Shown one piece after another: positions 1 to 53,193 of a stretch of 64,000 nt of DNA (the stretch's first letter is position 1; each line of letters starts with the position of its first letter). Where the stretch lies: the NCBI RefSeq assembly GCF_014873145.1, contig NZ_JADBEK010000001.1, positions 3,658,001 to 3,722,000 on the forward strand, written 5' to 3'. Origin of the DNA: Nonomuraea angiospora. Its GTDB lineage: Bacteria > Actinomycetota > Actinomycetes > Streptosporangiales > Streptosporangiaceae. The position numbers and the translations under genes are program-made. Below the pieces are notes generated by a model that was not told the DNA's origin, did not search any database, and saw only the letters and a list, made by a program, of their open reading frames with translations.

Positions 1-729
1 GGCGGGCGGCTCGACGCCGTCCAGGAGGTTGCGGTACGCGACCCGTTCGGCGGTGAACGTGCGGCCGGCGGGCAGCTCGTCCAGCCACAGCTTGGCCAGG
101 TCGTCGGTGGTGAAGCCGCGGCCGTGGCGCTCCAGGACGGACAGGGCCAGCAGCGGGTAGTTGAGGTCGTCGTCCTCGGGGATGCCGTCGATGTTCTCGG
201 CCAGGGAGTTGACGGCGCTGCGGCGGTTCCACGGCCAGCGGCGGGCGACGTCGTCCGGGAGCCCCTTGGCGGTGAACCAGCCGCGGATGGGCCAGTTGCC
301 GGTGGCCTCGGCGATCTGCCTGACGCCCTCGCGCGGGATCTTCTCCACGGGCTTGCCGAGCACGCACCCGGCCGCCCGCCCCTGCCACGCGCCGAGCACC
401 CGCGCCGGATCGACGGCCGATCTCGTCGTCGTGCCCGGCCAGGACGGGCAGGCGGCGACGATGCCGGCCAGGTCCGAGGGCTCGGGCAGCGGGGACGGGA
501 CGGCGGCCAGCTCGTCCAGCAGCTCCCCGGCCAGGTCCCGCAGGCGGGCCGCGCCCGGCTCGGAGGCCCCGGCGCGCGGGGGCGCGTCGTGGCCGCCGGC
601 CGCGTGCCAGCGGTCCGCGATCTCCCTCACGCGCTCCGCGTCGGGGCCGGAAGCCCGGCCGTCCTCGACGGCCTGGCGGAGTTCGTGGCCGATCAGGTCC
701 TCCGGCTGGACCCAGGTGAGGCGGATCAC
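1..729 (-). CDS. ADP-ribosylglycohydrolase family protein, C-terminus cut by window edge
   Basis: Partial: 243 codons are visible and the frame is still open at base 1. The GTG start (727-729) overlaps the stop of the upstream gene as GTGA, which implies translational coupling in one operon. Residues 1 to about 90 form an N-terminal extension absent from the three neighbouring homologues. The family domain begins near residue 95 (LGAWQGRAAGCVLGKPVEKI), and the first metal-binding acidic cluster appears as EDDDLNYPLLAL. Family members (DraG/ARH) bind a dinuclear metal and cleave N- or O-glycosidic bonds to ribose. The second metal-binding motif lies outside the window, so catalytic competence cannot be judged. 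It is the last visible gene of the sugar-importer operon; a ribosyl substrate is inferred. Confidence 0.85.
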   Translation of the reverse strand, partial: MIRLTWVQPEDLIGHELRQAVEDGRASGPDAERVREIADRWHAAGGHDAPPRAGASEPGAARLRDLAGELLDELAAVPSPLPEPSDLAGIVAACPSWPGTTTRSAVDPARVLGAWQGRAAGCVLGKPVEKIPREGVRQIAEATGNWPIRGWFTAKGLPDDVARRWPWNRRSAVNSLAENIDGIPEDDDLNYPLLALSVLERHGRGFTTDDLAKLWLDELPAGRTFTAERVAYRNLLDGVEPPA

Positions 730-1865
730 CGGCGGTCGAGGTCGGCGAAGGCGGCCTCGTGGCCGCGGCGCCGTACCAGGTCGTCGGCGTGCACCCGGCG
801 CGCCACCTCCGCGATCGCGAGCCCGGGGGCCACCAGGTCCGTCCGGCTGGCCGCCCCCACCTGCGAGACCCACTCCGGCGGCACCGCGGACAGCCCCCCG
901 AGGGCGCCCGCGATGGCCCCGCCCATGGACGCGATCGAGTCGGCGTCGCGCCCGTAGTTGACGCCGCCCAGCACGGTCTCGCGGTAGTCGCCCTTGGCGA
1001 TCACCAGGAACCCGAGCGCCAGCGGCAGCTCCTCGATGCTGTGCACCCGGCTCGGCCGCCGCGCCCCCAGCCCCTGGTCGCGGTAGGTGTCGGCGACGGT
1101 GTCGTAGGGCCGCATGGCGGCGCGCAGCGTCTCGAACGACCCGTCCCAGTGCCCCAGCCCGGCGGCGGCCTCGCAGACGGACTCGATGGCGGCCCGCGTG
1201 CCGTCCTTGGCCAGGCGCAGGCAGGCCGCGATCACGGAGTCCGCGGTGGCGCCCGGCCGCATGGCCTCGGCCACGGCGGCGGCCATCACCCCGGCGGCCT
1301 CCCGGCCGTAGCTGGACTGGTGCGCCCCGGCCAGGTCGACGGCCTCGGCGTAGGCGGCGTCGGGGTCGGCGGCGTTCACGATGCCAACGGGGGCGACGTA
1401 CATGGCGGCGCCGCAGTTGACGATGTTGCCGACGCCGGCCTCGCGCGGGTCCACGTGCCCGTAGTGGAGCCTGGCCACGATCCACTTCTCGGCCAGGAAG
1501 ATCCGCTGCAGCGGCAGCGCCTCGGCCTCCAGCTCGGGGATCCAGCGCCGCTCGCCCATCAGCTCGGGCACCAGGTGCTCGGCCATCGAGTACGCGGTCA
1601 GGTGCCCGCCGGCCTTCTCGTAGACGCGGATCAGGGCGTGCGTCATCAACGTGTCGTCGGTGATGTGGCCGTCGCCCTTGTGGTACGGGGCGATGGGACG
1701 GGCGTTGCGCCAGTCGTCGTTGAACGGCGGCACGATGCCCTCGACGCGACCCCCGTACCTCTCGACGATCTGCTCGGGGGTCCAGCCCTCGGTGGCGCCG
1801 CCCAGCGCGTCACCGACCGCCGCCCCCGCCACGCAGCCAGTGGCCCTGTCCTCAAGCGGCGTCAT
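726..1865 (-). CDS. ADP-ribosylglycohydrolase family protein
   Basis: 379 aa. The N-terminal CVAGAAVGDALGG segment, TDDT at residues 69-72 and GRDADSIASMGGAIAGALGG from about residue 305 are the metal-binding signatures of the DraG/ARH fold, so this copy looks catalytically intact. There is no signal peptide; it should be cytoplasmic. ATG start; it overlaps the upstream gene by 4 bp (ATGA) and the downstream homologue by 4 bp. Family members hydrolyse ADP-ribosyl-protein or other ribosyl glycosidic bonds. Here the context is an ABC importer rather than a nitrogenase or a partner ADP-ribosyltransferase, so a catabolic role on an imported riboside is inferred but not shown. Confidence 0.9.
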   Translation of the reverse strand: MTPLEDRATGCVAGAAVGDALGGATEGWTPEQIVERYGGRVEGIVPPFNDDWRNARPIAPYHKGDGHITDDTLMTHALIRVYEKAGGHLTAYSMAEHLVPELMGERRWIPELEAEALPLQRIFLAEKWIVARLHYGHVDPREAGVGNIVNCGAAMYVAPVGIVNAADPDAAYAEAVDLAGAHQSSYGREAAGVMAAAVAEAMRPGATADSVIAACLRLAKDGTRAAIESVCEAAAGLGHWDGSFETLRAAMRPYDTVADTYRDQGLGARRPSRVHSIEELPLALGFLVIAKGDYRETVLGGVNYGRDADSIASMGGAIAGALGGLSAVPPEWVSQVGAASRTDLVAPGLAIAEVARRVHADDLVRRRGHEAAFADLDRR

Positions 1866-2827
1866 GCGATTCCCTCCGATAGTTCGATCAGATCTTGCCC
1901 TGCCAGGTCAGGCAGGCAACAACCGGCCAGCGTGCGTACCGACGCGATCCACCCCTCCGGGATCGCCTCCAGCCCGCCGCACGCTCCCGCGAGCGCGCCG
2001 GTCAGCGCGGGCGCCGAGTCGGCCAGCGCGGCCAGGCAGGCCGCCGCGGGCACGGCCCGCGCGAGCTCGCCGCCCGCCGCCTCGGCCAGTGCCAGCGCCA
2101 CCGGCACGGTCTGCGCGGCGCCGACGCCGTAGCTGTAGACGTGGTCGAGCAGCGCGGCGTCCAGCGCGGGCACGGCCGCGAACGGGTCGCCCGCCCTGCG
2201 CGTGACCGCCAGCGCCGCGCGGGCGTTGTGGCCGATGGCGGTGTCCTCGGGCAGGACGGCCAGCGCCGCCTCCACCGCCCCGGCCACCGATCCCGACCGC
2301 ACGGCCTCGGCCACGGCGGCGGCCATGGCCAGGGCGCCCAGGACTCCGTCATAGGCGTTCGTCACCTGGGCGTCCTGCGTGGGGTCCCGTCCCAGGACCC
2401 CGAACGCCACGGCCCTGACGGCGGCGGCGTCGTCGAAGTGGTGCGGGTTGTCGTGCCCGGACGCGGGCGGCTCGAGGCCCTTGGCGAGGTTGTCGAGCGC
2501 GGTGGCCACCGAGATCCGGCCCCTGACACCGTCCCGGCGCAGCTCCCTGAACGCCTCGGCTCTCGGGCGGTCGATGGTGAGCGCCGTCCAGGCCAGCCAT
2601 TCGGCGTCGTCGGACGGGCCTACGGCCAGCGGGGCCGTGGGCTGGTTGAGCGCGAACGGGACCGGCAGCGTGGTGACCTCGTGCTCCTCCGCGAAGGCGT
2701 CCAGCTCTCTGTGCAGGCGTCTGCTCCAGGGGGCGTGCAGGGCCGCCCGGTGCCTGGCCGCCGGCCATCCGGCGGCGTCACCGACGGCGAGCCCGGCGAA
2801 GGCCCCTCTGATTCTGTCCCCCGACAT
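1862..2827 (-). CDS. ADP-ribosylglycohydrolase-like protein with degenerate metal site
   Basis: 321 aa, recognisable by its N-terminal AFAGLAVGDAAGW and overall fold pattern. The active-site motifs are eroded: the usual TDDT is SDDA (residues 72-75), and the C-terminal GRDADT-type motif is LADSAP (about 268-273), losing the paired aspartates. The reading frame is otherwise clean and translationally coupled (ATGA) to the next gene. It starts 6 bp after the upstream homologue. It may be an inactive, regulatory or heteromeric partner of the neighbouring intact copies, or have a changed metal site. Cytoplasmic, with no signal peptide. Confidence 0.75.
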   Translation of the reverse strand: MSGDRIRGAFAGLAVGDAAGWPAARHRAALHAPWSRRLHRELDAFAEEHEVTTLPVPFALNQPTAPLAVGPSDDAEWLAWTALTIDRPRAEAFRELRRDGVRGRISVATALDNLAKGLEPPASGHDNPHHFDDAAAVRAVAFGVLGRDPTQDAQVTNAYDGVLGALAMAAAVAEAVRSGSVAGAVEAALAVLPEDTAIGHNARAALAVTRRAGDPFAAVPALDAALLDHVYSYGVGAAQTVPVALALAEAAGGELARAVPAAACLAALADSAPALTGALAGACGGLEAIPEGWIASVRTLAGCCLPDLAGQDLIELSEGIA

Positions 2828-2833
2828 CGTGAT

Positions 2834-3796
2834 CTACAGTCCTCCCGCCAGTTCGTCGGCGACGTCCAGTACGTGTCTTCCGGCCACGACGGGCAGGCAT
2901 TTGCCCGTCACGGGGCCGATCCTGGCCGCCCACCGTCCGGGCACGCCGCTCTCGCCGCGCATGGCTCCGGTGATCGCCCCGGCGATGGCGCCGATCGTGT
3001 CGGCGTCCCTGCCCAGGCTCACCCCGAACGTCACGGACGCCTCGACGTCGCCGTCCCCGGCCAGCACGGCCGCCAGCGCCAGCGCCACGGCCTCGGGGGC
3101 GACGTCGGTCCAGGGGTAGTGCCTGACGACCACGGCCGCGTGCAGCGCCTCGACGAGCGCGGCCTCGTCGGCCGGGCCCGTGACCTGTTCCGTGGCGCGT
3201 ACGACGTTGCGGGCGGTCCACGAGTCGGCGGGGATCACCGACAGCGCCGCCCGTACGACGTCCTGGACCGAGGCCCCGCCCAACGCGGCGGCCACGGCCC
3301 CGGCGACCGCGCGGCCGCCCAGGATGCCCTCGCCGGACCCGCTGACCAGCCCGTCCTGCTCCACCAGCCGGGCCGCCTCGGCGGGATCGCCCGGGCAGAA
3401 CACCCCGTACGGCGCCGCCCGCATCGCCAGCCCGTCCGACCAGCCGTGCGAGTGGACCAGCCCCGTCAGCGGCGGCTCCAGCCCGCGGCGAAGCGCTTCG
3501 ACGGTGCCCAGCTCGGAGAACCCGGCCCCGCGCATGGGACCGGTGACCCGCGGGATGATCTCCCGCCGGTACGCCTGCGCCACGTCGGCGGAGGTCAGCG
3601 CGTGCCCGTGCCGCACCAGGAGCGAGGCGGCGAAGATGGCGTACTCGGTGTCGTCGGTCCCGCCGCCCTCGATCTCCGTGAGCCGGCCCCACCGCCGCCG
3701 GATCTCCGACGGCGGCAGGTTCTCGGCCGGGGCCCCGAGGGCGTCCCCGGCCGCGAGGCCGAGGAGACACCCACGGGCCTTATCCCGAAAAGTCAC
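2834..3796 (-). CDS. ADP-ribosylglycohydrolase family protein
   Basis: 320 aa with both family metal-binding motifs: TDDT at residues 47-50 and GRDADTIGAIAGAITGA from about residue 262. It is predicted to be an active, cytoplasmic ribosyl-glycohydrolase of the DraG/ARH family. The GTG start overlaps the stop of the solute-binding protein gene (GTGA at 3796-3793), tying the hydrolases to the importer in one transcript. The actual substrate (protein-linked ADP-ribose, free ADP-ribosyl compound or nucleoside-like glycoside) cannot be read from sequence. Confidence 0.9.
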   Translation of the reverse strand: MTFRDKARGCLLGLAAGDALGAPAENLPPSEIRRRWGRLTEIEGGGTDDTEYAIFAASLLVRHGHALTSADVAQAYRREIIPRVTGPMRGAGFSELGTVEALRRGLEPPLTGLVHSHGWSDGLAMRAAPYGVFCPGDPAEAARLVEQDGLVSGSGEGILGGRAVAGAVAAALGGASVQDVVRAALSVIPADSWTARNVVRATEQVTGPADEAALVEALHAAVVVRHYPWTDVAPEAVALALAAVLAGDGDVEASVTFGVSLGRDADTIGAIAGAITGAMRGESGVPGRWAARIGPVTGKCLPVVAGRHVLDVADELAGGL

Positions 3797-5100
3797 CGCT
3801 GGTACCGCTCCAACACCTTGTTGCCGTCCTCGACCAGCTTCGAGGCCGCCTGGTCAATGGTGATCTTATTGGCGAAGTACTCCTGCAGCGTCGGCGTGGC
3901 GACCTTGGTCTTCCACTCGTCGAACCCGTTCACCTTGAGGAACGGCGCCACGACGAGGTTCTTGGCGGAGGCGGTGGCCACGTCCCAGCCGTTCTCCTTG
4001 GTGGTCATCGCCGGGTCGGCGGCGGCCGCCTGGGAGGTCGGCAGGAGCCAGTCACCCTTGGCGAGCTTGGCCTGGTTCGCGCCGTTCAGGAAGAAGGCGA
4101 TGAACTTCATGGCCTCGTCCGGGTGCTTGCTGTCCTGCGCGATAGACAGCGTCTGCGAGACCGCGCCCTGCTGGGCGCTCGTGCCCTTCGGCGCGGGGAG
4201 CGTGACCCACTCGAAGCCCTCGGGAGCCTGCTCGGCGACCTGCTGGCGCAGGAACACGCCGGCGGGCAGCAGCGCGAACTTGCCCTTGTAGAAGGCCGGC
4301 AGCGGGTCCGCGGTGCCCTGGCCGAGCGCGGCCGGGTCGGCGGACTTGTCCTTGTAGAGCTGGTCGTGGATGCGCTGGAGCACCTCGCGCTCCTCGGGGC
4401 CGACCTTGACCGTGGTCTTGCCGTCGGCCGTCTGGAAGAACGTGCCGCCGAAGTTGAGCGCCAGGTTGAGCGTCTTGTTGACCGGCGACTTCATCGGCCA
4501 GGCCACGCCGAAGTTGCCGCCCTTGGTCATCTTCTTCGCCGCGGCCGAGAACTCGTCCCACGTCCAGGGGTTGTCGGGCGTCGGGACGCGCGCGCCGGAG
4601 GCGTCGAGCAGCTTCTTGTTGGCGATGATGACCTGCGACTCCTGCAGGAACGGCACGCCGTACACGCCCTGCTGGCCCTTGCCGTCGTCGAAGGTGACGG
4701 TGTCCCAGGCGGGCTGCGGGATGTCGCTCTTGAGCTCGGCGGGCAGCTTGTCCTTCAGGTCGAGCAGGTAGCCGTCGGAGGCGAAGCCGGACAGCGCGGG
4801 CGAGTCGTTGTGGATGACGTCCGGCGCCGTGCCGCCGGCGAACTGGGTGACGAGCTGGTCGTTGACGTTGTCCCAGCTGCCCTGGACGTAGGTGACCTGG
4901 ATGTTGGGGTTGGCCTTGTTCCACTCGTCCACGAGCTGCTTGTTCGCGGCGACGGATTCCTTCTGCCACGCCAGGCTGAGGAAATTGATCTTGACTGGCT
5001 CGTTGGGGGCGGACGACGACTGCGCGCCGCCGCCTCCCCCGCCGCACGCGGCGGCGAGCGTGAGGATCGCCGCAGCCGCCAGAGCGGACGTGATTCGCAT
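3793..5100 (-). CDS. ABC sugar importer, extracellular solute-binding lipoprotein
   Basis: 435 aa. It has an N-terminal lipoprotein signal with lipobox LAAAC (Cys19) followed by a Gly/Ser linker, then a family 1 solute-binding fold (NFLSLAWQKESVAANKQLV, FAGGTAPDVIHNDS). It would be anchored outside the membrane and deliver substrate to the two permeases encoded just upstream. ATG start; it begins 9 bp after the stop of the membrane gene. The ligand is unknown; the linked ADP-ribosylglycohydrolase genes suggest a ribosyl-containing compound rather than an ordinary oligosaccharide. Confidence 0.93.
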   Translation of the reverse strand: MRITSALAAAAILTLAAACGGGGGGAQSSSAPNEPVKINFLSLAWQKESVAANKQLVDEWNKANPNIQVTYVQGSWDNVNDQLVTQFAGGTAPDVIHNDSPALSGFASDGYLLDLKDKLPAELKSDIPQPAWDTVTFDDGKGQQGVYGVPFLQESQVIIANKKLLDASGARVPTPDNPWTWDEFSAAAKKMTKGGNFGVAWPMKSPVNKTLNLALNFGGTFFQTADGKTTVKVGPEEREVLQRIHDQLYKDKSADPAALGQGTADPLPAFYKGKFALLPAGVFLRQQVAEQAPEGFEWVTLPAPKGTSAQQGAVSQTLSIAQDSKHPDEAMKFIAFFLNGANQAKLAKGDWLLPTSQAAAADPAMTTKENGWDVATASAKNLVVAPFLKVNGFDEWKTKVATPTLQEYFANKITIDQAASKLVEDGNKVLERYQR

Positions 5101-5109
5101 ATGAGCCTC

Positions 5110-5928
5110 CTAGCCCTTCACGGCGCCGGCCATCAGGCCGGACTTCAGTCGCCGCTGAATGATTGCGAAGAAGATCAGGCTCGGGATCGTCGCCATGAGC
5201 GACGCCGCGGCCAGCGGGCCGAGCCTGGCCACCCCCTCGGGTCCGGTGAACCGCACCAGAGTGAGCGGGAGCGTCATGACATCGGGGTTCTGCAGGATCA
5301 CGAGCGCGAACATGAACTCGTTCCACGACGAGATGAACGAGAACAGCAGCGTGGCCACCACGCCCGGCGCCAGCAGCGGCGCGACCACGCTCGCGATCGA
5401 GCGCAGCCGGGTCGCGCCGTCCACGGCCGCGGCCTCCTCCAGCTCGCGCGGCACCGCGCGCACGTACCCCTGCAGCATCCACAGCGCGAACGGCAGCGTG
5501 AACGTCACGTGCACGACCACCAGGCCGGGCAGCGTGTTCACCAGGTCCAGATCGCGCAGGATCATGAAGAGCGGAATGATGATCAGGATGAACGGGAACA
5601 CCTGGCTGACCAGCACCCAGCCGATGGCGATGCGGTTGAGCAGGCTGCGGTAGCGCGCCATCGCGTAGGAGGCGGGCAGCGAGATCAGCACCGTGATCAC
5701 GCTGCTGAACAGCGCCACGACCAGGCTGCGCAGCCCCGCGCCCACCAGGTCCTGCTCGCCGAACGCGTCGGCGAAGTTGGCCAGCGTCGGGTCGCGCGGG
5801 ATCCACGTGGGGTCGGCCAGGGCCATCTCCCGCGGCGTCTTCAGCGCCGTCGACAGCAGCCAGGCCAGCGGGAACGCCAGGAAGACGATGTACGCGACCA
5901 GCGCCACGTACTGCGAGAAGCGCCTCAT
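5110..5928 (-). CDS. Carbohydrate ABC transporter permease (MalG type)
   Basis: 272 aa. It starts MRRFSQYVALVAYIVFLAFP, with the ATG sharing one base with the upstream stop (TGATG). About six hydrophobic helices and the cytoplasmic EAA loop (EEAAAVDGATRLRSIASVVA) that docks the ATPase identify a MalG/CUT1-type inner-membrane subunit. It pairs with the 5928-6845 permease and the lipoprotein at 3793-5100. No ATPase gene is present, so a shared MsiK-type ATPase encoded elsewhere is expected. Confidence 0.93.
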   Translation of the reverse strand: MRRFSQYVALVAYIVFLAFPLAWLLSTALKTPREMALADPTWIPRDPTLANFADAFGEQDLVGAGLRSLVVALFSSVITVLISLPASYAMARYRSLLNRIAIGWVLVSQVFPFILIIIPLFMILRDLDLVNTLPGLVVVHVTFTLPFALWMLQGYVRAVPRELEEAAAVDGATRLRSIASVVAPLLAPGVVATLLFSFISSWNEFMFALVILQNPDVMTLPLTLVRFTGPEGVARLGPLAAASLMATIPSLIFFAIIQRRLKSGLMAGAVKG

Positions 5929-6845
5929 CACTTGGTCTCCCTCATCTGGCGTCCCAGGTAGAGCGCGAGCACGGCCAGCACGACGATCGCCATCGCGAGG
6001 CCGAGCATCGAGGCGTAACCGGCCATCCGGTACCTGAACGCCTCCTCGTACGCGAACAGCATCGGCAGCCGCGTCTGCCCGCCCGGCCCGCCCTGCGTGA
6101 GCACGTAGACCAGGCCGAACTGGTTGATGTTCCACACGAAGTCGAGCGAGGTGATCGCCACGATCACCGGCCGCAGCTGCGGCAGCGTGATGTTCCAGAA
6201 CCGCCGCCAGCGGGTGGCGCCGTCCACCTCGCCGGCCTCGTAGAGCTCCTTCGGGATGCCCTGCAGGCCCGCCAGCAGGACCACCGTGGTCTGCGGCATG
6301 CCGGTCCAGATGCCGACCACGATGATCGCCGGCAGCGCGAGCGAGAAGTCGGCCAGCCAGTTGATGTCCGTGCCCAGCAGGTCGTTCAGGATGCCGGCGT
6401 CGGGGTGGTAGACGAGCTTCCACATCAGGCCGATGACCACCGGCGGCATCGCCCACGGCACCACCGCCAGCACCCGGGCCACGCCCCGGAACCGCAGGTT
6501 CTCGTTGAGCAGCAGCGCCAGGCCGAGGGCGGCCAGGAACTGCAGCACGGTCACCGAGACGCCCCAGATCGCACCGATCTTGAACGAGGACCAGAACTCG
6601 TCGTCGGTCAGCAGCCGGCCGAAGTTCTCCAGGCCGACGAAGCTCGTCTCGCGGTTACGGGTGTTGCGGGCGTCGGTGAACGCCAGGCCGATGCCGTACA
6701 GCAGCGGGCCCACGCTGAACAGCGCCACCGGCACCAGAGCGGGCAGCATGAGCAGCCACATCTCGCGCGTCTGGCGCGAGATCCGGCGGCGCTTGGCGCG
6801 CCGCGTCCCGCGCGGCGGCGCCGGCCTCGTCACGGTCGCCGTCAC
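5928..6845 (-). CDS. Sugar ABC transporter permease (MalF type)
   Basis: 305 aa. A basic N-terminus (about 30 residues rich in Arg/Lys) precedes six predicted membrane helices. The EAA loop reads YEAGEVDGATRWRRFWNITL. This is the MalF-type CUT1 permease of the importer. Its start overlaps the lacI stop (6842-6845), so the regulator and transporter are co-translated. Confidence 0.93.
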   Translation of the reverse strand: MTATVTRPAPPRGTRRAKRRRISRQTREMWLLMLPALVPVALFSVGPLLYGIGLAFTDARNTRNRETSFVGLENFGRLLTDDEFWSSFKIGAIWGVSVTVLQFLAALGLALLLNENLRFRGVARVLAVVPWAMPPVVIGLMWKLVYHPDAGILNDLLGTDINWLADFSLALPAIIVVGIWTGMPQTTVVLLAGLQGIPKELYEAGEVDGATRWRRFWNITLPQLRPVIVAITSLDFVWNINQFGLVYVLTQGGPGGQTRLPMLFAYEEAFRYRMAGYASMLGLAMAIVVLAVLALYLGRQMRETK

Positions 6846-7936
6846 GCCTTCCCTCCTTCATCCGTACGGTGCTCGCATCCGGCGCCCGGCCCGCCCGGCT
6901 TGCTCAGCCCGCTCGGCCCGGCCGGCCCGCTCTGCTCCCCGGCTGTTGAGGCACGGATCACGAGCTCGGGTGGCACGGTGACCAGCCTCGGCTCGCGATC
7001 GCCTCCCTGCAGCCGTTCGAGCAGCAGCTCGGCGGCGGCCTTGCCGCGCTCGGCGGACCCGAGCGAGACGCTGGTCAGCGACGGCCAGGAGGCGGCTGCC
7101 AAGTCGGTGTCGTCCATGCCGACCACCGCCACGTCCTCCGGCACCCGCCGCCCCGCCGCGCGCAGCACGTCGAGCGCGCCGAGCGCGATCAGGTCGTTCG
7201 CGCACATCAGCGCGTCCACGTCGGGAACCCTGGCGAGCAGCTCCGCCACCGCACGGCCCCCTTCCGCGCGGTAGAAGTCGCCGATCTGCACGAGGTTCTC
7301 GTCGTAGGGCAGGCCGAGGTCCAGGAGCGCCTCCCGGTACGCGGCCCCGCGGGCGGCGCCGGGGACGGTGTCCAGCGGGCCGTTGACCATGGCGATGCGG
7401 CGGCGGCCGAGCGCGTACAGGTGATCGATCGCCAGCCTGACGCCGGTCCGCGAGTCGGCCCGTACGTTGTCCACGCGGGTGCCCTCGGGCACCTGGCCGA
7501 TGATCACGACGGGGGTGCGGGCGGCGGCCAGCATCTCCAGGTGCGCCTCGGTGACCCGCAGCGGGCTCATGATCAGCCCGTCCACGTACCGCTCGCCCAG
7601 ACTGTGCAGCACGTCGATCTCGTCGGCCACGACGGCGTCGGTGGAGTGCAGCACGAGCCGGTATCCGGCGGCCTTCAGCACGGGCTGGATCTGGCGGAGC
7701 ATGGCCAGGTAGGCGGGGTTGCCGACGTCGGCCATGGCGAAGGCGACCTGGTGGGTGCGGCGCGACTTGAGCGACCTGGCCACGGCGTTGCGCACGTAGC
7801 CCAGCTCGTCGGCGGCGGCCATCACCTTGCGCACGGTCTCCTGCCTGGTCGGCAGGCCGTTCAGCACCCGCGAGACGGAGGCGATCGAGACACCGGCGCG
7901 CTCGGCGATCGTGTTGATCGTGGGTCCGTCGGCCAA
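6842..7936 (-). CDS. LacI family transcriptional regulator
   Basis: 364 aa. The N-terminal helix-turn-helix (TINTIAERAGVSIASVSRVL, about residues 5-24) and hinge are followed by a periplasmic-binding-protein-like effector domain. It is the first gene of its operon, so it is probably autoregulatory. The start is an unusual TTG (7934-7936) backed by a strong GGAAGGA ribosome site 6 bases upstream. Two identical 12-bp palindromes 20-45 bp upstream of the start (7956-7967 and 7980-7991) are its likely operators. The effector is presumably the imported ligand or a breakdown product. Confidence 0.92.
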   Translation of the reverse strand: MADGPTINTIAERAGVSIASVSRVLNGLPTRQETVRKVMAAADELGYVRNAVARSLKSRRTHQVAFAMADVGNPAYLAMLRQIQPVLKAAGYRLVLHSTDAVVADEIDVLHSLGERYVDGLIMSPLRVTEAHLEMLAAARTPVVIIGQVPEGTRVDNVRADSRTGVRLAIDHLYALGRRRIAMVNGPLDTVPGAARGAAYREALLDLGLPYDENLVQIGDFYRAEGGRAVAELLARVPDVDALMCANDLIALGALDVLRAAGRRVPEDVAVVGMDDTDLAAASWPSLTSVSLGSAERGKAAAELLLERLQGGDREPRLVTVPPELVIRASTAGEQSGPAGPSGLSKPGGPGAGCEHRTDEGGKA

Positions 7937-7955
7937 GGCTGTCCTTCCATGTCCT

Positions 7956-7967
7956 GTAAACGTTTAC
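7956..7967. promoter_or_regulatory. Proximal LacI operator
   Basis: Perfect 12-bp palindrome GTAAACGTTTAC with a central CG, the classic LacI-family operator form. It sits 20 bp upstream of the lacI TTG start and is identical to the copy at 7980-7991. Confidence 0.85.
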
Positions 7968-7979
7968 GATCTAGGTGCT

Positions 7980-7991
7980 GTAAACGTTTAC
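7980..7991. promoter_or_regulatory. Distal LacI operator
   Basis: Second perfect copy of GTAAACGTTTAC, 24 bp centre-to-centre from the proximal site. The pair probably binds two LacI dimers and controls the whole minus-strand operon. Confidence 0.85.
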
Positions 7992-8475
7992 GGTGTTTGG
8001 GACATGAAATATGCGTGTAACTTGCAGGTCAAGTCACGATCGCATAACGCCAGGTCAAAGCCACTTTCCGCAGTCTCCCACGTCCCCACATCCCCCGACC
8101 ACCCCCGACCACCGTCCCCACATCCCTGGACCACCGCCCCCACGCGCTCGCCACCCCCCGCCGCCGTCACACGCCGGTGGAGCGCCGTGCGCGTTGCGCC
8201 GAGCACCACCGCCCCACACCCCGCCGACCCGGCGCCCAGGCGGCGGCACCGACGGTCGCGAGTTACCCGGAGGCGCTCCTACCTGCCCTCGCTCCTCCAC
8301 GCCCACGGCCACGCCCCGCCACACCTGCGCCACACCTGCGCCACGGCCTTCGCGCCCGCCACCTCCGGCGCGCCGTCTGCAATTGCCCCTTGGAGTCCGC
8401 CGGCCGTCCAGCGCACCGCCGCCCAGGGCCGTCGCGGTCAAGCCCATCGGGGTCCAGCCCGCCGCCGCAGGCCCT
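7992..8475. other. Non-coding, C-rich low-complexity intergenic DNA
   Basis: About 480 bp upstream of the LacI operon. Open frames exist in several registers, but they give Pro/Arg/His-rich low-complexity translations on both strands with no recognisable domain, which is typical of composition-driven spurious frames. A loosely repeated GTCCCCACATCCC motif occurs twice near 8090-8130. I see no gene or RNA here. Confidence 0.6.
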
Positions 8476-8683
8476 CCACTGTCCGAGCCCTCCGCCGTCC
8501 GAGCCCTCCGCCGTCCGAGGCCACCGCCGTCCGAGGCCACCGCCGTCCGAGGCCACCGCCGTCCGAACCCATCCCCCTCCGAACCCGCCGCCATTCGGAC
8601 CCACCGCCCTCCGAACCCGGCGCCGTCCAGGCCCACCGCCGTCCGAACCCGGCGCCGTCCGGGCCCGACGCCGTCCGTGGGTG
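8476..8683. repeat. Thirteen 16-bp tandem repeats
   Basis: Thirteen head-to-tail units of 16 bp, consensus CCGCCGTCCGAGGCCA. Three units (8508-8555) are identical and the rest differ at a few positions; the last is partial in identity. Because 16 is not a multiple of 3, a frame running through it would be shifted at every unit, so the array is not coding. It ends 14 bp from the stop of the MFS gene (8698). Confidence 0.9.
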
Positions 8684-8697
8684 GCGGGCCGCCGGGG

Positions 8698-9927
8698 TCA
8701 GTCGTGGGCCGGGGCTGGGGTGGGGTCTGGGGTTGAGGTGGGAAGGTGGGTCAGGGTGCGGATGGCGGGGGTGCCGCTGAGGGCGACGACGGCGGCGAGG
8801 ACCGCGGGGATGATCAAGGCGACCGGCAGGGACGAGGCCTCGGCCACGTAGCCCAGGACGGCGGGTCCGAGGAGGAGGCCGCTGTAGCCGAAGGCGGTCA
8901 CCATGGCGAGGGCGCGGCCGACGCGGCCCCCGGCGGCCCCGACCGCGCTGAAGAGGACCGGGATCACCGTGGCCAGCCCGACGCCCGCCAGGGCCCAGCC
9001 GCTCCAGGCGCAGACGATCTGGAGGGCGCCTCCCGCCACCGGCGACACCAGGACCAGGACGTAGCCGGCCGTGGCGAACGCGCCCGCGAGCTGGATGGTG
9101 CGGACCGAGCCGAGCCGGGCACGGATGGGGTCGCCGAGCAGGCGGACGGTGGTCATGGCCACCGAGAAGATCGTGTACGCGAGCGGTGCCATGGCCGGAT
9201 CCGTCTCCAGCACCCACCGGGCGTGCAGGGCGGCCCAGTCGATGGCGGCGCCCTCGCTCAGGTGCCCGGCGAAGGCGGCCAGGCCGAGCAGGGCGATCAG
9301 GCTCCAGCCCAGCGACGAGCCGGAAGAGACGCCGGCCTGCGACGCGGCGGCGTGGGCGGGCGGGTCCGGGAGCAGGAGGCGGGCCGCCGGCACGTACAGG
9401 AGGGGCACGACCAGCGCCGCCGCGATGAGCAGCCACTGCGCGTCCACGCCGGCCTGCAGCGCGAGCGAGGTGAGCCCGCCGCCGGCCGCCCCGCCCAGGC
9501 TCCACGTGCCGTGGAAGGCCGAGATGATCGGGCGGCCGTAGCGGCGTTCGACCTCGACGGAGTGGGCGTTCATGGCGACCTCGGTCACCCCGAGCCCGAT
9601 CCCGAACAGCACCGCGAGCACCGCCAGCGCCCAGTACGAGGACGCGAGGGCGGGGCCGAGCAGCACCAGCCCCGAGAAGGGCCCGGCGAACCAGCACACC
9701 CGGCGGCTGGACCACCTGTCCACCAGCCGCCCCGCCACCAGCATCGACACCAGGGCGCCACCCGAGATCAGCAGCAGGACGCTGCCCAGCCTGGCGGGGC
9801 CGAGGCCGAGCCGGTCGTTCAGGGACGGGAGCCCGGCGGCCCATAACCCCATCACGAACCCGGCGAGGAAGAAGAATGCGAACACTCCGGCACGAGCGCG
9901 TCTGGCCTCAACGATGCTTTTGTTCAC
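8698..9927 (-). CDS. MFS transporter
   Basis: 409 aa, GTG start (MNKSIVEARRARAGVFAFFF). About twelve hydrophobic helices are present, with MFS loop motifs (GRLVDRWSSRRV after helix 2; NAHSVEVERRYGRPIISAFH). The pattern resembles the YbjJ/fucose-permease-like branch. The C-terminus ends in a Pro/Thr-rich tail adjoining the 16-bp repeat array. It is divergent from the ROK regulator with only about 23 bp between starts, so that regulator probably controls it. Substrate unknown. Confidence 0.88.
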   Translation of the reverse strand: MNKSIVEARRARAGVFAFFFLAGFVMGLWAAGLPSLNDRLGLGPARLGSVLLLISGGALVSMLVAGRLVDRWSSRRVCWFAGPFSGLVLLGPALASSYWALAVLAVLFGIGLGVTEVAMNAHSVEVERRYGRPIISAFHGTWSLGGAAGGGLTSLALQAGVDAQWLLIAAALVVPLLYVPAARLLLPDPPAHAAASQAGVSSGSSLGWSLIALLGLAAFAGHLSEGAAIDWAALHARWVLETDPAMAPLAYTIFSVAMTTVRLLGDPIRARLGSVRTIQLAGAFATAGYVLVLVSPVAGGALQIVCAWSGWALAGVGLATVIPVLFSAVGAAGGRVGRALAMVTAFGYSGLLLGPAVLGYVAEASSLPVALIIPAVLAAVVALSGTPAIRTLTHLPTSTPDPTPAPAHD

Positions 9928-9950
9928 GGCTAGAGCATAAACTGTGGTCC

Positions 9951-11168
9951 GTGATCGGTGCTACGACGAGTGGCGAGCTTCGCGCGCACAACCGGGTCCG
10001 GCTGCTGCGCGCCGTACACGACTGCGGGGCCACCCGCACCAGGTCGCAGCTGACCCGCGACCTGCGCCTGGCGCGAGGGACGGCGTCGGTGCTGGTGGCC
10101 GGGCTCGCCGAGGACGAACTGCTGCACGAGGAGCCCGCCCGCGAGCCCGCCCGGGGACGCCCGACGCAGGTGCCGGGCCCGCATCCGCGCGGCCCGCTCG
10201 CCCTGGCGGCGGACGTACGGGAGGACGCCTGGGAGCTGGCGGCCGGCGAGCTCGGCGGCCGGACCGAGACGCTCGAGCTGCGCCCGCACGACGGCACCCC
10301 CGAAGGCGTCCTGAGACCCCTGGGCGAGGCCGTCGCCGCCCACCGGAGCCGCCTCGGGCACCGGGTGGTCGGCCTCGGGCTGGCCTTCGCGGGTCCGGTG
10401 CGGCACGGCGGCCTGGTGGACATCGCCCACCTGGGCTGGCGGTCGGTCGACGTACCGCACCTGCTCGGCCCGGACGTCCCGGCGCCCGTCGTGGGCAACG
10501 ACACCGCGTTCGCGGCGCTGGCCGAGGCGCGCAGGGGGCGGCTGCGGGGCGTCCAGGTGGGCCTGCACCTGCACGTGGACTTCGACCTCGGCGGGGTGCT
10601 CGTCGTGGACGGCCGGCCGCTGGGCGGGGCGAGCGGCGCGGGGGCCGAGTTCGGTCACATGCCGCTGACCGGCGGCGACCGGCCCTGCCCGTGCGGCGCG
10701 ATCGGCTGCTGGAGCATGGACGTCGGCGCGAACGCCCTGCTCCGCCACGTCGGCCTCGCCTACGGGGGCGGCAAGGGGCGCGCGCAGGCCGAGCGGGTGC
10801 TGGCCACCAGCGAGGAGGCGGTCACCGCCAACGCCAGAGCGCTCGGACGCGGCGTCGCGGCACTCGTCAACGCCCACGACCCCGAGGTCGTGACCCTGTC
10901 GGGCCACGGCGTGGAGCTGCGCGAGCGCGCCGGGAAGGCGCTCCTCGCGGCCTGCGAGCCCGGGCTCATGGCCATCCGCCGCGACCACCCGCCCAGGATC
11001 GAGGGCTCGGCGCTGGGCTGGCGCGGGGCGCTGGTGGGGGCGGTGGAGTCGGTGTTCGACGCCTTCCTCACGCCGGAGTGTGTCGAAATGTGGCGGGAAA
11101 ACCGGCCTGACCAGGGTCGCGACACGCCCGAGCGGCAGAATGTGATGAATTCCACGCTGAAGGGGTGA
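9951..11168 (+). CDS. ROK family transcriptional regulator
   Basis: About 405 aa from GTG 9951; an ATG at 9876 would extend into the divergent MFS gene and is rejected. An N-terminal winged helix (NRVRLLRAVHDCGATRTRSQ) is followed by a ROK domain. The zinc motif CPCGAIGCW is present at about residues 246-254. The kinase phosphate loop (DIGGT in sugar kinases) is replaced by ADVREDAWEL, so it is a repressor without kinase activity. The upstream gap is too short for a normal leader; a TAGAGCATAAACT stretch just before the GTG could be a -10 region of a leaderless transcript. It probably regulates the divergent MFS gene. Confidence 0.85.
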   Translation: MIGATTSGELRAHNRVRLLRAVHDCGATRTRSQLTRDLRLARGTASVLVAGLAEDELLHEEPAREPARGRPTQVPGPHPRGPLALAADVREDAWELAAGELGGRTETLELRPHDGTPEGVLRPLGEAVAAHRSRLGHRVVGLGLAFAGPVRHGGLVDIAHLGWRSVDVPHLLGPDVPAPVVGNDTAFAALAEARRGRLRGVQVGLHLHVDFDLGGVLVVDGRPLGGASGAGAEFGHMPLTGGDRPCPCGAIGCWSMDVGANALLRHVGLAYGGGKGRAQAERVLATSEEAVTANARALGRGVAALVNAHDPEVVTLSGHGVELRERAGKALLAACEPGLMAIRRDHPPRIEGSALGWRGALVGAVESVFDAFLTPECVEMWRENRPDQGRDTPERQNVMNSTLKG

Positions 11169-11287
11169 AGCCGCTCCCGCCCGGCTCCCCGCCCGAGTCA
11201 TGCTAGCGATCTTGCCGGACCCGGCCAAGGGGCGGTACGCATGAGGGGCAGGCCAATCATGACCCCGGCGATCCGAGGGAAGCACGC

Positions 11288-11692
11288 GTGAATCTCGAGC
11301 TCGCGCTCCGCATGACCGAGGCCGCCATCAGGCGGGCGATCCGCGAGGGCGCCGTGATCTCCGTGGCGGTCGTCGACGAGGGCGGATATCTGGTGTCTTT
11401 CCAGCGTATGGAGGGTGCGGAGATCGCCGGGCCGGGTCTCGCGCAGGGCAAGGCGTACACCGCGGTGGCCCTGCGCAGACCCACCGCGGAGCTGGCCGTG
11501 CGGACGGCTCCGGGAGGTGACCTGTACGGCCTGCCCAGGCAGGACTACGTCTGCGTCGGAGGCGGCATCCCGCTCTGGGCGGACTACGGTGGGGGAGCAC
11601 GCGTGGTCGGCGGCATAGGCGTCAGCGGAGGCACGATCACGCAGGACGTGGTGTGCGCGGAAGCGGCCGCGGAGGTCTGGCGGACACGTTGA
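11288..11692 (+). CDS. GlcG/HbpS family (DUF336) protein
   Basis: 134 aa, GTG start. MTEAAIRRAIREGAVISVAV, VVDEGGYLVSFQRMEGA and the C-terminal GGIGVSGGTITQDVVCAEAA are typical of the GlcG/HbpS fold, whose members include haem-binding redox sensors and glycolate- or diol-linked proteins. There is no signal peptide, so it should be cytoplasmic. It stands alone between the ROK regulator and the IHF-like gene; its ligand cannot be inferred from neighbours. Confidence 0.85.
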   Translation: MNLELALRMTEAAIRRAIREGAVISVAVVDEGGYLVSFQRMEGAEIAGPGLAQGKAYTAVALRRPTAELAVRTAPGGDLYGLPRQDYVCVGGGIPLWADYGGGARVVGGIGVSGGTITQDVVCAEAAAEVWRTR

Positions 11693-11794
11693 GCGGCGCT
11701 TTTCGCAACACGAACCGCTGGTATCCGCCATGATTAGCCACTGCACCACGGGTAACAGAATCCCGAACGTAAACTCCCCGAGGAGAGAACCGAG

Positions 11795-12100
11795 ATGGCA
11801 CTTCCCACTCTCACCCCCGAGCAGCGTCAGGCGGCTCTGGCCAAGGCCGCCGAGGCGCGTGCGGCCCGCACCGCCCTGCTGGCCAAGGTCAAGGCCGGCG
11901 AGCTGACGTTCGCCCAGCTGCTCGAGCGCGACGACGACATCGCGAAGAAGATCAAGGTGTCGCAGGCCCTGCGCGCCGTCAAGGGCGTCGGCCCGGCCAA
12001 GGCCACCGCGCTGATGGAGGAGGCGGGCGTCGACGAGAAGCGTCGCCTCGGCGGCCTGGGCGCCCAGCAGCGCAAGAAGCTGGTCGACGCGCTCGGCTAA
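11795..12100 (+). CDS. Actinobacterial integration host factor-like protein
   Basis: 101 aa starting MALPTLTPEQRQAALAKAAE, the family N-terminus. A helical arm and a helix-hairpin-helix DNA-binding segment follow (ALRAVKGVGPAKATALMEEA, residues about 62-81), then an RLGGLGAQQRKKLVDALG tail. Family proteins (mIHF/sIHF) bind DNA non-specifically and compact the nucleoid. GAGGAGAG precedes the ATG. The usual neighbour gmk is absent and the middle of the protein is divergent, so this may be a second copy rather than the housekeeping one. A strong hairpin follows the gene. Confidence 0.88.
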   Translation: MALPTLTPEQRQAALAKAAEARAARTALLAKVKAGELTFAQLLERDDDIAKKIKVSQALRAVKGVGPAKATALMEEAGVDEKRRLGGLGAQQRKKLVDALG

Positions 12101-12115
12101 TCCTCCGAGCGGCCA

Positions 12116-12141
12116 GGTCCGCGCGCGACGCCGCGCGGACC
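12116..12141. terminator. Bidirectional terminator-like hairpin
   Basis: Perfect 10-bp arms GGTCCGCGCG / CGCGCGGACC with a 6-base loop, 15 bp after the IHF-like stop and before the convergent response-regulator stop. No U-tract, as is common in actinomycetes. Confidence 0.75.
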
Positions 12142-12224
12142 GGCCACACCCCCCGGCCACCACCCCCGGCCACCCCTCGACAACCCCTCTCCCGGCCCTC
12201 CATCGGCAGGGCTCGCCGGGAGGA

Positions 12225-12872
12225 TCAGGAGCGCAAATAGGTCAGGACGGCGAGCACCCGGCGATGCTGGTCGCTGTCCTCCGCGTAGAGGCCGAGCTTG
12301 TTGAAGATGCTCCTGATGTGCTTCTCCACGGCCCCGTCACTGATCACGAGCTGCCGTCCGATGGCCGGATTGGACTTCCCCTCCGCCATCAACCCGAGCA
12401 CCTCGCGCTCCCGCGGCGTCAGCTGCGCCAGCGGATCGTCCTTACGTCTGCGCACCATCAACTGGGACACCACCTGCGGATCGAACACCGTCCCGCCCGC
12501 GGCCACGCGCCGCAGGCCCTCCAGGAACTCGTCCACGTCGACGACCCGGTCCTTGAGCAGGTAACCCACCGCGCCCCTGGCGTCGGCGAGCAGGTCGTCG
12601 GCGTAGGAGACCTCGACGTACTGCGAAAGGATCAGCACGGGCGCCCCTGGCACCCTGCGCCGCGCCTCCACGGCCGCCCTGAGCCCTTCGTCGGTGAACG
12701 ACGGCGGCATGCGCACGTCGACCACCGACACGTCCGGCCTGTGCTCGGCGATCGCCCCTACGAGGGCGTCGCCGTCACCGACGGTCGCCACCACCTCGCA
12801 GCCGAACTCCTCCAGCAACCTGACCAGGCCCTCCCTGATCAGAACCGCGTCATCGGCCACGACTACCCGCAC
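12225..12872 (-). CDS. NarL/LuxR-type response regulator
   Basis: 215 aa, GTG start. The receiver domain has an acidic pocket at D7-D8 and phospho-acceptor D52 (VVDVRMP). The C-terminal LuxR helix-turn-helix spans about 151-195 (LTPREREVLGLMAEGKSNPA). Its start overlaps the sensor kinase by 10 bp, so the two form a pair. The likely target is its own promoter, where an 18-bp inverted repeat is found at 14167-14184. Confidence 0.93.
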   Translation of the reverse strand: MRVVVADDAVLIREGLVRLLEEFGCEVVATVGDGDALVGAIAEHRPDVSVVDVRMPPSFTDEGLRAAVEARRRVPGAPVLILSQYVEVSYADDLLADARGAVGYLLKDRVVDVDEFLEGLRRVAAGGTVFDPQVVSQLMVRRRKDDPLAQLTPREREVLGLMAEGKSNPAIGRQLVISDGAVEKHIRSIFNKLGLYAEDSDQHRRVLAVLTYLRS

Positions 12873-14110
12873 GGCACCTCCGCCACGATCACTGTCGGCC
12901 CGCCGTCCGGCGACTGCACGCTCAGCTCCCCGTCGACGGCGCGGAGCCGGTCGGCCAGCCCGGCGAGACCGTGTCCCTTGGCGACGTGCGCGCCGCCGAC
13001 CCCATCATCCCCGATCGTGAGCATGAGGAAGTCACCGATGCGGACCAGCTGGATCGCGCAGCTGGTGGCGCGGCTGTGTTTGGCCACGTTGGTGAGGGTC
13101 TCGGCGCAGACGAAGTAGAGGGCGTTCTCCACCGCGGCCTGGTAGCGCTCGGCGGTCTGCACGTCGAGGTCGACGGGGACCGTGCAGCGCCCGGCCAGCG
13201 CGGCCAGCGCGGGCGCGAGACCGCGGTCGGACAGGATCGGCGGCGCGATGCCGCGCGAGAGCGCGCGCAGCTCGTCGAGCGTCTCGCGGGTGGCCGAGAT
13301 GGCGGACTTGATCGTGGCCTGCGCCGCCTCGGGGTCCTTGGCCAGCTGCCGCTGCGCCCGGGACAGCTCCATGGCCAGCGAGACCAGCCGCTGCTGCGGC
13401 CCGTCGTGGATGTCGCGCTCCAGCTTGCGCAGCGCGTTGGCCTCGGCGGAGACGGCGGCGGCGCGGCCCTGGGCCAGGTCGTCGATGCGCTCCTGCAGCT
13501 CGGCCACGCCGGTCAGCAGGGCCCGGCCGAGCCCGGCGCGCAGCAGCGCGGAGCCGCGCACGGCGAACGGCATGATCAGCGCGAAGACCAGGCCGAGGGA
13601 GACGTAGAAGATCGAGTTGACGCCGTAGCCGTCGCCCAGGCCGAGCAGCTCGGGCAGCTCCACGTTGCCGGGGATGCGCGAGGTGATGATGCCGTAGATC
13701 GGATAGGTCAGGCCGGCCAGCGGGAGGGCCCAGAACACCACGGTGAGCACGAACGACAGGATGGCGAACGGCAGGTTGATGATGCCGTGCAGCAGGTCGA
13801 GCCAGGACTGCCCGCTGGTCAGCGGGTTGACGACCCGGCGGAAGCGGCCCGCCCCGGGCGGCGCGGGCTTGTAGCGGGGCCGTACGGGCGGGCGGTCCAG
13901 CACGTCGGACAGCCAGCCGCGCTCCGCGTCGGCGAAGCCCCGGGCGGCCAGCAGCGTGCCGGCCAGCAGCGGCACGCCCAGCCACACGATCGCCGTGCCC
14001 ACGCCGGCCGCGAAGCCGGCGAGCATGATCACGAAGCCGATGACGGCCGTGGGGAAGCCGACGAGCGTGTAACGGGTGTCGAGAAGGACACGCCTCATCC
14101 GGGAGCGCAT
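12863..14110 (-). CDS. DesK-type sensor histidine kinase
   Basis: About 415 aa from ATG 14110 (MRSRMRRVLLDTRYTLVGFP); an upstream in-frame GTG at 14143 is possible. N-terminal membrane helices belong to a sensor region with two hydrophobic blocks. The HisKA_3 box is ERDIHDGPQQRLVSLAMELS (His is the phosphorylation site). The C-terminal HATPase_c domain has TLTNVAKHSRAT and GDDGVGG. It phosphorylates the response regulator encoded directly downstream. The signal sensed is unknown. Confidence 0.9.
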   Translation of the reverse strand: MRSRMRRVLLDTRYTLVGFPTAVIGFVIMLAGFAAGVGTAIVWLGVPLLAGTLLAARGFADAERGWLSDVLDRPPVRPRYKPAPPGAGRFRRVVNPLTSGQSWLDLLHGIINLPFAILSFVLTVVFWALPLAGLTYPIYGIITSRIPGNVELPELLGLGDGYGVNSIFYVSLGLVFALIMPFAVRGSALLRAGLGRALLTGVAELQERIDDLAQGRAAAVSAEANALRKLERDIHDGPQQRLVSLAMELSRAQRQLAKDPEAAQATIKSAISATRETLDELRALSRGIAPPILSDRGLAPALAALAGRCTVPVDLDVQTAERYQAAVENALYFVCAETLTNVAKHSRATSCAIQLVRIGDFLMLTIGDDGVGGAHVAKGHGLAGLADRLRAVDGELSVQSPDGGPTVIVAEVPCG

Positions 14111-22987: not shown

Positions 22988-22997
22988 GGGAGTCCTG

Positions 22998-24542: not shown

Positions 24543-24551
24543 GGGAGTCCT

Positions 24552-25853: not shown

Positions 25854-25867
25854 TCGCTGACCTCTTC

Positions 25868-26677: not shown

Positions 26678-26693
26678 GGGTCTCTCAGCTCTC

Positions 26694-28918: not shown

Positions 28919-28992
28919 CCTCAATCCTCTCGACTTACGAAGGAGCGCTTCATTAGTAGCACCGGCTCTCCGGCGGGGTCAATGACGGATTT

Positions 28993-29010
28993 TTGCCGCT
29001 ATAACGGCAA
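28993..29010. promoter_or_regulatory. Probable ROK operator
   Basis: TTGCCG-CTATAA-CGGCAA: perfect 6-bp arms, 6-base AT-rich spacer, in the 166-bp gap between the divergent GH36 operon and the ROK gene. The assignment to the ROK protein is inferred. Confidence 0.65.
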
Positions 29011-29084
29011 GTAGAGGGGGCGCGTACAGCCGTCAATCGCTGGCATAATCTCTGGTTACAGAGGAGACCTACTTAAGGACGGCG

Positions 29085-50034: not shown

Positions 50035-50132
50035 GAGGAAGCAGCCCCGAGGCGAGGATCAGCCGGTGAAGTCCCGTGCTCAGCCCGGCGGAGGTGCCGG
50101 GCTGAGCGGCGGCGGTCAGCCCGGCGGGGTGG

Positions 50133-51629: not shown

Positions 51630-51670
51630 GGAGAGATCTCCTGGGTTTCGCGGGCGTTACGTGATCCAGA

Positions 51671-51686
51671 TTGTTAGCGATAACAA
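51671..51686. promoter_or_regulatory. LacI operator of GH51 gene
   Basis: TTGTTA-GCGA-TAACAA, perfect 6-bp arms. On the minus strand, TTGACC (51699-51694), 17 bp and TAACAA (51676-51671) form a promoter whose -10 lies inside the operator. Confidence 0.8.
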
Positions 51687-51737
51687 GGAGGCCGGTCAAG
51701 GGGTGCCCGACCAGGTCGCCCTGGTCAAGGAGGGGGC

Positions 51738-51765
51738 TTGACACACCTCTTGTTACCGCTAACAC
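51738..51765 (+). promoter_or_regulatory. Importer promoter with LacI operator
   Basis: TTGACA (51738-51743), 16 bp, TAACAC (51760-51765), overlapped by the operator TGTTA-CCGC-TAACA (51751-51764). Binding there would block the -10. Confidence 0.75.
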
Positions 51766-53171: not shown

Positions 53172-53193
53172 CCGAGCCGACGAAGGAGGGCGC

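Follow-up and report, generated by a model that had tools for sequence, protein, structure and literature searches.

Passages of PMC7050489 describe how, in enzymes of the ADP-ribosylglycohydrolase (ARH) family, the cis hydroxyls at positions 2'' and 3'' of a ribose are gripped at a two-metal centre, and how both metals are needed to position the substrate; contacts with adenosine differ greatly among ARH classes, and the glutamate (Glu) flap is crucial in ARH3 and of little weight in DraG. The named operon type nearest to the one treated here is Escherichia coli yegTUV, in which a transporter, the ARH-family protein YegU and the PfkB kinase YegV stand together; according to the parts of PMC10819704 that concern it, it is linked to ADP-glucose and glycogen and has a major facilitator superfamily transporter of the nucleoside:H+ symporter type, a GntR-family regulator and a single ARH. 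Streptomyces coelicolor has four consecutive DraG/ARH homologues, SCO2028–SCO2031, listed as uncharacterised in passages of PMC9411070 and PMC5087735 (the older of these two papers lists just the first three), where the many DraG/ARH hydrolases of this organism, eight by their count, are seen as a hint that its ADP-ribosylation metabolism is lively. Here we analyse a run of nine genes from Nonomuraea angiospora in which four likewise consecutive ARH genes (a, b, c and d) follow a lacI gene and a sugar importer and precede a ribokinase gene. Most of it lies in the window, by which we mean the whole 64,000-nucleotide stretch analysed (G000:C1:3658001-3722000 of the 13.09-Mb genome). The operon is real and conserved, and we found no study of it: within the open-licence PubMed Central (PMC) literature our searches turned up no paper on it, the relevant ones being a paper on yegTUV and three on S. 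coelicolor. We read it, with a probability of about 0.5, as a LacI-repressed operon for the uptake and breakdown of a ribose-containing conjugate, in which ARH-fold proteins would act as ribosidases.

The genes and their predicted operators are as follows, in window coordinates unless stated otherwise.

7980..7991, no strand assigned: predicted LacI-type operator palindrome GTAAACGTTTAC, copy farther from lacI
7956..7967, no strand assigned: predicted LacI-type operator palindrome GTAAACGTTTAC, copy nearer lacI
6842..7936, minus strand: lacI, LacI-family regulator, 364 aa (Pfam LacI and Peripla_BP_3)
5928..6845, minus strand: p1, CUT1-type ATP-binding cassette (ABC) permease 1 (PF00528, BPD_transp_1)
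5110..5928, minus strand: p2, CUT1-type ABC permease 2 (PF00528, BPD_transp_1)
3793..5100, minus strand: sbp, extracellular solute-binding lipoprotein (PF01547, SBP_bac_1, 134 bits)
2834..3796, minus strand: ARH-a, signature GTDDTEY...GRDADT (PF03747, 189.1 bits)
1862..2827, minus strand: ARH-b, degenerate, keeping PSDDAEW and lacking the Glu-flap Glu and the first Asp of the C-terminal DxD (PF03747, 84.8 bits)
726..1865, minus strand: ARH-c, signature TDDT...GRDADS (PF03747, 170.2 bits)
1..729, minus strand: ARH-d, N-terminal part, signature EDDDLN...GWDTDS (PF03747, 168.4 bits)
beyond the left window edge, to G000:C1:3657380, minus strand: remainder of ARH-d, the whole protein having 449 aa
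G000:C1:3656499-3657383 (L009 8499-9383), outside the window, minus strand: ribokinase gene (TIGR02152, 318.3 bits)

A preliminary description of the window had reported lacI, two permeases, a binding lipoprotein and four ARH genes in one tight run. Coordinates and Pfam matches bear this out for the eight genes; the run extends further than described, continuing past the window edge with the rest of d and the ribokinase. The GTGA/ATGA overlaps that it had also reported, each a four-base stop-start overlap, occur at five of the eight junctions (lacI/p1, sbp/a, b/c, c/d and d/ribokinase); p1 and p2 overlap by one base, and gaps of 9 and 6 bases separate p2 from sbp and a from b, respectively. 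A gene on the opposite strand overlaps the end of the ribokinase gene and closes the run. With its SBP_bac_1 binding protein and two BPD_transp_1 permeases, the importer is of the CUT1 carbohydrate type. No ABC ATPase gene is present in the run, and a shared ATPase elsewhere in the genome was not searched for. All four ARH proteins exceed the PF03747 cut-off of 26.2 bits. Because four of the nine PF03747 matches of the genome are consecutive and co-oriented here, and because the order is conserved elsewhere, the run is not a chance arrangement.

Conservation was assessed in a scan with d over named species, taking the best 80 of 481 stretches that encode a relative. The a-b-c-d order is present in 74 of these loci and the complete lacI-to-d set in 53; five of the other six end at contig ends, and the sixth, from Actinomadura alba (L077), has no c. 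Some species are doubled among the loci (e.g. L013/L050, L014/L076, L016/L067 and L024/L081), which together span the Streptosporangiaceae, Thermomonosporaceae, Nocardiopsidaceae, Pseudonocardiaceae, Jiangellaceae and Streptomycetaceae. The closest relatives of ARH-b are Nonomuraea proteins; at E 1e-10, and counting weak matches, 48 of 150 genomes of the order gave a homologue of b. When we read 21 loci (our own and 20 chosen among those with a b homologue), the order lacI-p1-p2-sbp-a-b-c-d was identical in 16, with the ribokinase next in 13 of the 16; the remaining five carry another type of operon, in which just a- and b-like genes stand beside a different importer. Thus, the order recurs across actinomycetes and is not peculiar to this genome. 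The importer lies directly upstream of the enzymes in 31/31 loci of the Nonomuraea group and 37/38 other non-Streptomyces loci. Streptomyces differs, since the importer does not adjoin a-b-c-d in 18 of 19 loci; in the Streptomyces genomes of the d scan, a small sample, sbp is encoded elsewhere in 8/8, and at each of the five loci fetched it has the two permeases as neighbours.

Related but smaller arrangements are found further afield. Rhizobia have the lacI-p1-p2-sbp order followed by a c-like gene, a d-lineage gene of 700 residues and the ATPase gene ugpC, to which Ensifer adds a coenzyme A (CoA) transferase and a CoA ester lyase, Agrobacterium a ribokinase, and Nitratireductor neither; in Pseudochrobactrum the sole ARH is a c-like gene ahead of ugpC. 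Deinococcus has an importer, a hypothetical gene, a d-lineage gene, a ribokinase and a second d-lineage gene, and Mycolicibacterium has lacI, one d-lineage gene, an importer, a ribokinase and ugpC. The d-lineage proteins of a rhizobial locus (L110 11130-13229) and a Deinococcus locus (L115 10091-12193) continue for about 390 residues past the ARH domain, and no Pfam model scores above its cut-off in this part.

For a control, we chose 19 ARH loci of the phylum by hand among the matches listed and sought importer genes nearby with our own queries at E 1e-5, a search that would miss importers unlike the queries. An importer operon was present at one locus (L159), which itself belongs to the d lineage; at L155 permease matches lie nearby on the other strand, and a weak ABC-ATPase match was within reach at three loci. 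Among the five other ARH genes of the Nonomuraea genome, one lies, as judged by eye, in an apparent operon of a CUT2-type importer and a kinase. The association with importers thus looks like a property of certain lineages and not of the whole ARH family. At G000:C1:2785-2792 kb (L139 5415-11789), a CUT2-like binding protein, an ATPase and two permeases can be made out by eye, followed by a kinase and an ARH-family gene; the kinase gives a weak ribokinase match (27%), and the logic of the group resembles that of yegTUV.

The preliminary description had called for a tree of the four ARH copies. In a tree of 67 proteins, in which several long branches were flagged as unsure by the program, the copies fall into four separate lineages. 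All 12 c rows fall in one clade (99/99), whose sister is a group of three rhizobial c-like proteins (100/99). The 12 d rows likewise make up a clade (98/96); the Mycolicibacterium and Deinococcus proteins attach to it first, followed by those of 700 residues (100/100). The a clade has 11 rows (100/99), and the b clade (100/99) includes one mislabelled row, L082_a, which represents the b portion of a fused reading frame; given this row, a and b each need two changes on the tree. The grouping of a and b with each other and with the a- and b-like genes from the other type of operon is less firm (90/84). YegU and the other ARH proteins of this genome lie in none of the four lineages, although the YegU branch is long and its placement unsure.

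How do these proteins compare with characterised members of the family? DraG, ARH1 and ARH3 differ from the present set, which comprises four divergent copies in an importer operon, none of them reaching an equivalog cut-off. The DraG model (TIGR02662, cut-off 337.05 bits) gives 63.2 for a, 15.7 for b and 46.0 for c, and the model for the ADP-ribosylarginine hydrolase Tri1 (NF041672, cut-off 490 bits) gives 39.6, 20.9 and 46.5; no match to either is listed for d. Both a nitrogenase-type (DraG) and a Tri1-type ARH were rejected on these scores. A role in anti-phage defence was likewise rejected, with no PADLOC match for a–d at E 0.001. Compared with the known enzymes, d has EDDD instead of TDDT and is longer at the N terminus by about 110 residues, and b lacks catalytic positions.

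The states of the active sites were tallied over the loci, leaving out four rows labelled a that are d fragments of incomplete loci; the b row of L109 is incomplete. We take the positions to be metal-binding partly from the passages of PMC7050489 cited at the outset, and the correspondence of residues among a–d is our own reading of the alignments. TDDT and GRDADT are present in 84/84 true a rows, TDDT and GRD[ACS]DS each in 88/88 c rows, and GWDTDS and EDDD in 92/92 and 90/92 d rows, respectively. The Glu-flap Glu of c is present by pattern in 76 of 88 rows and, on inspection of five of the other twelve rows, in all five. For b, [ST]DDA is kept in 87/88 rows, while the first C-terminal Asp is replaced by L, V, A, T or F in 88/88 and the Glu-flap glutamate is replaced in 87/87 testable rows; owing to b, an intact two-metal active site is not found in every copy. 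The PDB holds human ARH3 entries whose titles indicate changes at D77 or D314.

The median ratio of non-synonymous to synonymous substitution rates (dN/dS) over seven Nonomuraea pairs is 0.21 for b, comparable to 0.25 for a, 0.17 for c and 0.24 for d, which argues that b is under purifying selection and is not decaying. Natural a–b fusions occur in 19 database protein clusters; fusion frames of L085 and L108 are in records with runs of N and were not counted as clean. One such fusion gave a predicted fold with a predicted template modelling score (pTM) of 0.72. When single a and b proteins were aligned to the fusion, the b rows landed on the a half, so these alignments were not used for folding; in a PDB search with the fusion, the strong rows were filled by the a half, and the b half was not among them. 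Because purifying selection maintains b despite the loss of two catalytic positions, and because it is found fused to a, the two are probably an active/inactive pair. The suggestion in the preliminary description that each paralogue handles a different linkage is accordingly unlikely to hold for b, given its degenerate active site; its other suggestion, a hetero-oligomeric hydrolase, gains from the fusions and the predicted fold of one of them as far as a and b are concerned and finds no support for c and d. At L025–L029, in genomes of the same taxonomic family as Nonomuraea, the other operon type places an a-like and a b-like gene beside lacI and a different binding protein and permeases, and in the two pairs aligned the b-like gene is again without the first C-terminal Asp. 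Since this loss is shared, the a–b pairing may be older than the present operon.

Just upstream of lacI are two exact GTAAACGTTTAC palindromes, whose starts are 24 bases apart. The motif occurs twice in the window and in 0 of 100 shuffled windows, and at three places in the whole 13.1-Mb genome, two of which are at this promoter. The third copy (G000:C1:3758686-3758697) is 93 kb away, and inspection by eye revealed no evident regulon member or riboside gene adjoining it. Among 69 lacI-bearing loci, the exact site lies within −200 to +60 of lacI in 59, with 0 copies elsewhere in the 1.32 Mb of those loci. We read these sites as the predicted operators of a dedicated, self-regulated operon. The top NCBIfam model for the lacI product is RbsR-like (190.5 bits, under its cut-off of 382). 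A promoter with near-unique operators of this kind offers a route to the inducer.

The genes that follow d bear on the fate of the product. The kinase scores above the cut-off of the ribokinase equivalog TIGR02152 (318.3 against 299.65 bits). Of the four proteins in the genome that match this model it scores highest, and the 15 PDB sequences that it matched at E 1e-30 all bear the name ribokinase. In the operons of Agrobacterium, Deinococcus and Mycolicibacterium, the corresponding kinases score below this cut-off (279.4, 290.8 and 189.6 bits). Downstream genes were counted at those loci where the sequence runs on for 3.2 kb or more beyond d, of which 33 belong to the Nonomuraea group (L014, from Thermoactinospora, included), 22 to Streptomyces and 33 to others. 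A ribokinase follows d in 33/33, 18/22 and 26/33 of these, respectively. A class III CoA-transferase gene comes further on at 22/22 loci of Streptomyces and at 27/33 of the others, accompanied by a HpcH/HpaI (CitE-like) lyase in 22/22 and 25/33; each is found in 0/33 loci of the Nonomuraea group. Ensifer has the same two genes after its ARH genes. The pair recalls the itaconate-type modules of CoA-transferase and RipC (Ccl) in combining homologues of a CaiB-type transferase and a RipC/CitE-like lyase. It differs in that no hydratase gene was noticed alongside and in its scores: one lyase scanned was nearest the itaconate lyase RipC, and the transferase was nearest the succinate–glutarate and formyl-CoA transferases, all far under the cut-offs. 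In the Nonomuraea genome, the best CoA-transferase homologue (64%) lies about 550 kb away beside a lyase (47%), at G000:C1:3107924-3109932 (L130 7924-9932), adjoining what appears by eye to be another ABC system; this pair is possibly the relocated end of the operon. Allokutzneria (L082 12237-14180) and Jiangella (L101 9634-11556) have an extra gene between ribokinase and CoA-transferase, whose product, about 640 aa long, ends in an FGE-sulfatase domain and over its first 480 residues has no Pfam match at E 0.01.

These features suggest a pathway, which as a whole is moderately supported. The CUT1-type importer would bring a ribose conjugate into the cell, where the ARH-fold enzymes would hydrolyse its ribosyl bond. 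Two distinct ribosidases may be represented by c and d, and a third by a, in a complex with b as its maintained, non-catalytic partner. The ribokinase would convert the freed ribose to ribose 5-phosphate. In most lineages, the class III CoA-transferase would then load the remaining acid onto CoA, and the CitE/RipC-like lyase would split it at a C–C bond; in Nonomuraea, the distant CoA-transferase/lyase pair may serve the same pathway. The ARH set is best read as ribosidases because the family holds ribose and because the set sits between a sugar importer and a ribokinase, and the CoA-transferase and lyase that follow hint at a hydroxy-acid as the other part of the molecule. We know of no riboside-acid natural product that fits as the substrate. 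The preliminary description had envisaged the import and dismantling of ribosylated or ADP-ribose-like compounds; the ribokinase strengthens the ribosyl link, and nothing points to ADP-ribose itself, since Pfam identifies no ADP-ribosyltransferase, Nudix or nucleotidase gene among the nine and the binding protein is most similar to binders of the oligosaccharide type.

Several observations weigh against this interpretation. In a survey of 150 Streptomyces genomes, c was found in 109 and sbp, at E 1e-100, in 98, with both in 77 (∼71 expected), c only in 32, sbp only in 21 and neither in 20; the association is weak (odds ratio 2.3, P = 0.034, uncorrected for kinship), and the tight co-inheritance of importer and enzymes that we had expected was rejected. 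A recheck of all candidates at E 1e-60 found sbp in 0/20 of the 32 c-only genomes and c in 1/21 of the sbp-only genomes. Given the weak co-occurrence and the nearly empty rechecks, Streptomyces can keep the enzymes without this importer, and vice versa. The exact operator is missing in 10/69 lacI loci, and the idea of a shared operator was rejected, as none was found at the Streptomyces loci that are split or at the locus of the CoA-transferase in Nonomuraea. The CoA-transferase and lyase homologues of Nonomuraea are unlinked to the run and may serve otherwise. The binding protein resembles oligosaccharide binders and not nucleoside binders, its nearest solved chain being 5f7v (Lmo0181), followed by an arabino-oligosaccharide binder and other sugar binders. 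Finally, yegTUV is tied to ADP-glucose and glycogen (the cited parts of PMC10819704), and we found no reported activity for any of ARH-a, -b, -c or -d in the open-licence PMC literature.

Some of these points would fit a substrate made inside the cell, with the ARH set clearing ribosylated or damaged metabolites and recycling their ribose, and the importer a separate system or an occasional partner. The 32 of 109 c-bearing Streptomyces genomes without sbp can be so explained, as can the 18 of 19 loci where a-b-c-d, the CoA-transferase and the lyase stand apart from the importer. However, the importer is closely linked in Nonomuraea, most other families, rhizobia and Deinococcus, and LacI-type operators mark the promoter of importer and enzymes together; we consider an internal substrate rather unlikely. 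The properties of the binding protein, the yegTUV precedent and the subthreshold kinases of rhizobia, Deinococcus and Mycolicibacterium are in line with an ordinary sugar operon, in which the ARH-fold proteins would cleave some other glycosidic or sugar-nucleotide bond (e.g. of an ADP-sugar or a non-ribose pentofuranoside) and the kinase would take another sugar. The kinase of this operon passes the ribokinase cut-off, though, and YegU belongs to none of the four lineages, with the reservation made above about its branch; we regard such an operon as unlikely. The view tacit in the S. coelicolor literature is that a–d are true (ADP-ribosyl)hydrolases, acting on cellular ADP-ribosylation or, in a variant, on imported ADP-ribose. 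It draws on PF03747 membership, on the inclusion of SCO2028–2031 among the DraG/ARH homologues and on the argument from hydrolase number. Against it, the DraG and Tri1 cut-offs are missed by far, the run holds no transferase or nucleotide-handling gene, and the CoA-transferase, lyase and ribokinase neighbours look catabolic. According to passages of PMC13036486, no activity on uracil-alpha-ADP-ribose could be detected for SCO2028 or for SCO2030 when either was assayed by itself; this is a single substrate, offered without the b partner. We consider this view quite improbable.

The reading as a ribose-conjugate operon, by comparison, suggests that ARH enzymes here feed on ribose-bearing compounds instead of reversing protein signals. 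SCO2028–2031 are very probably a, b, c and d, if one starts at trpX = SCO2038 and counts genes backwards in the Streptomyces order seen at L105; this identification is by synteny, not from the S. coelicolor sequence, and presumes that the ribokinase is absent, as in four other Streptomyces loci. In its fullest form, which we put forward tentatively, the locus would represent an undescribed pathway in which ARH-fold ribosidases serve an environmental ribose–hydroxyacid conjugate, a and b form an obligate active/inactive heterodimer, and four of the eight S. coelicolor DraG/ARH homologues are nutrient enzymes. If those four are indeed catabolic, the argument for a lively ADP-ribosylation metabolism shrinks. 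The operon also lends itself to testing whether the ARH fold has been recruited as a general ribosidase, and with the degenerate partner b now named, a fair assay of a would include b.

Positions 1-14000 of the window gave no Rfam match. Elsewhere in the window, two more sugar-importer gene groups with apparent glycosidases, judged from the N-terminal sequences of called genes, lie at 21038-30239 and 49045-54947.

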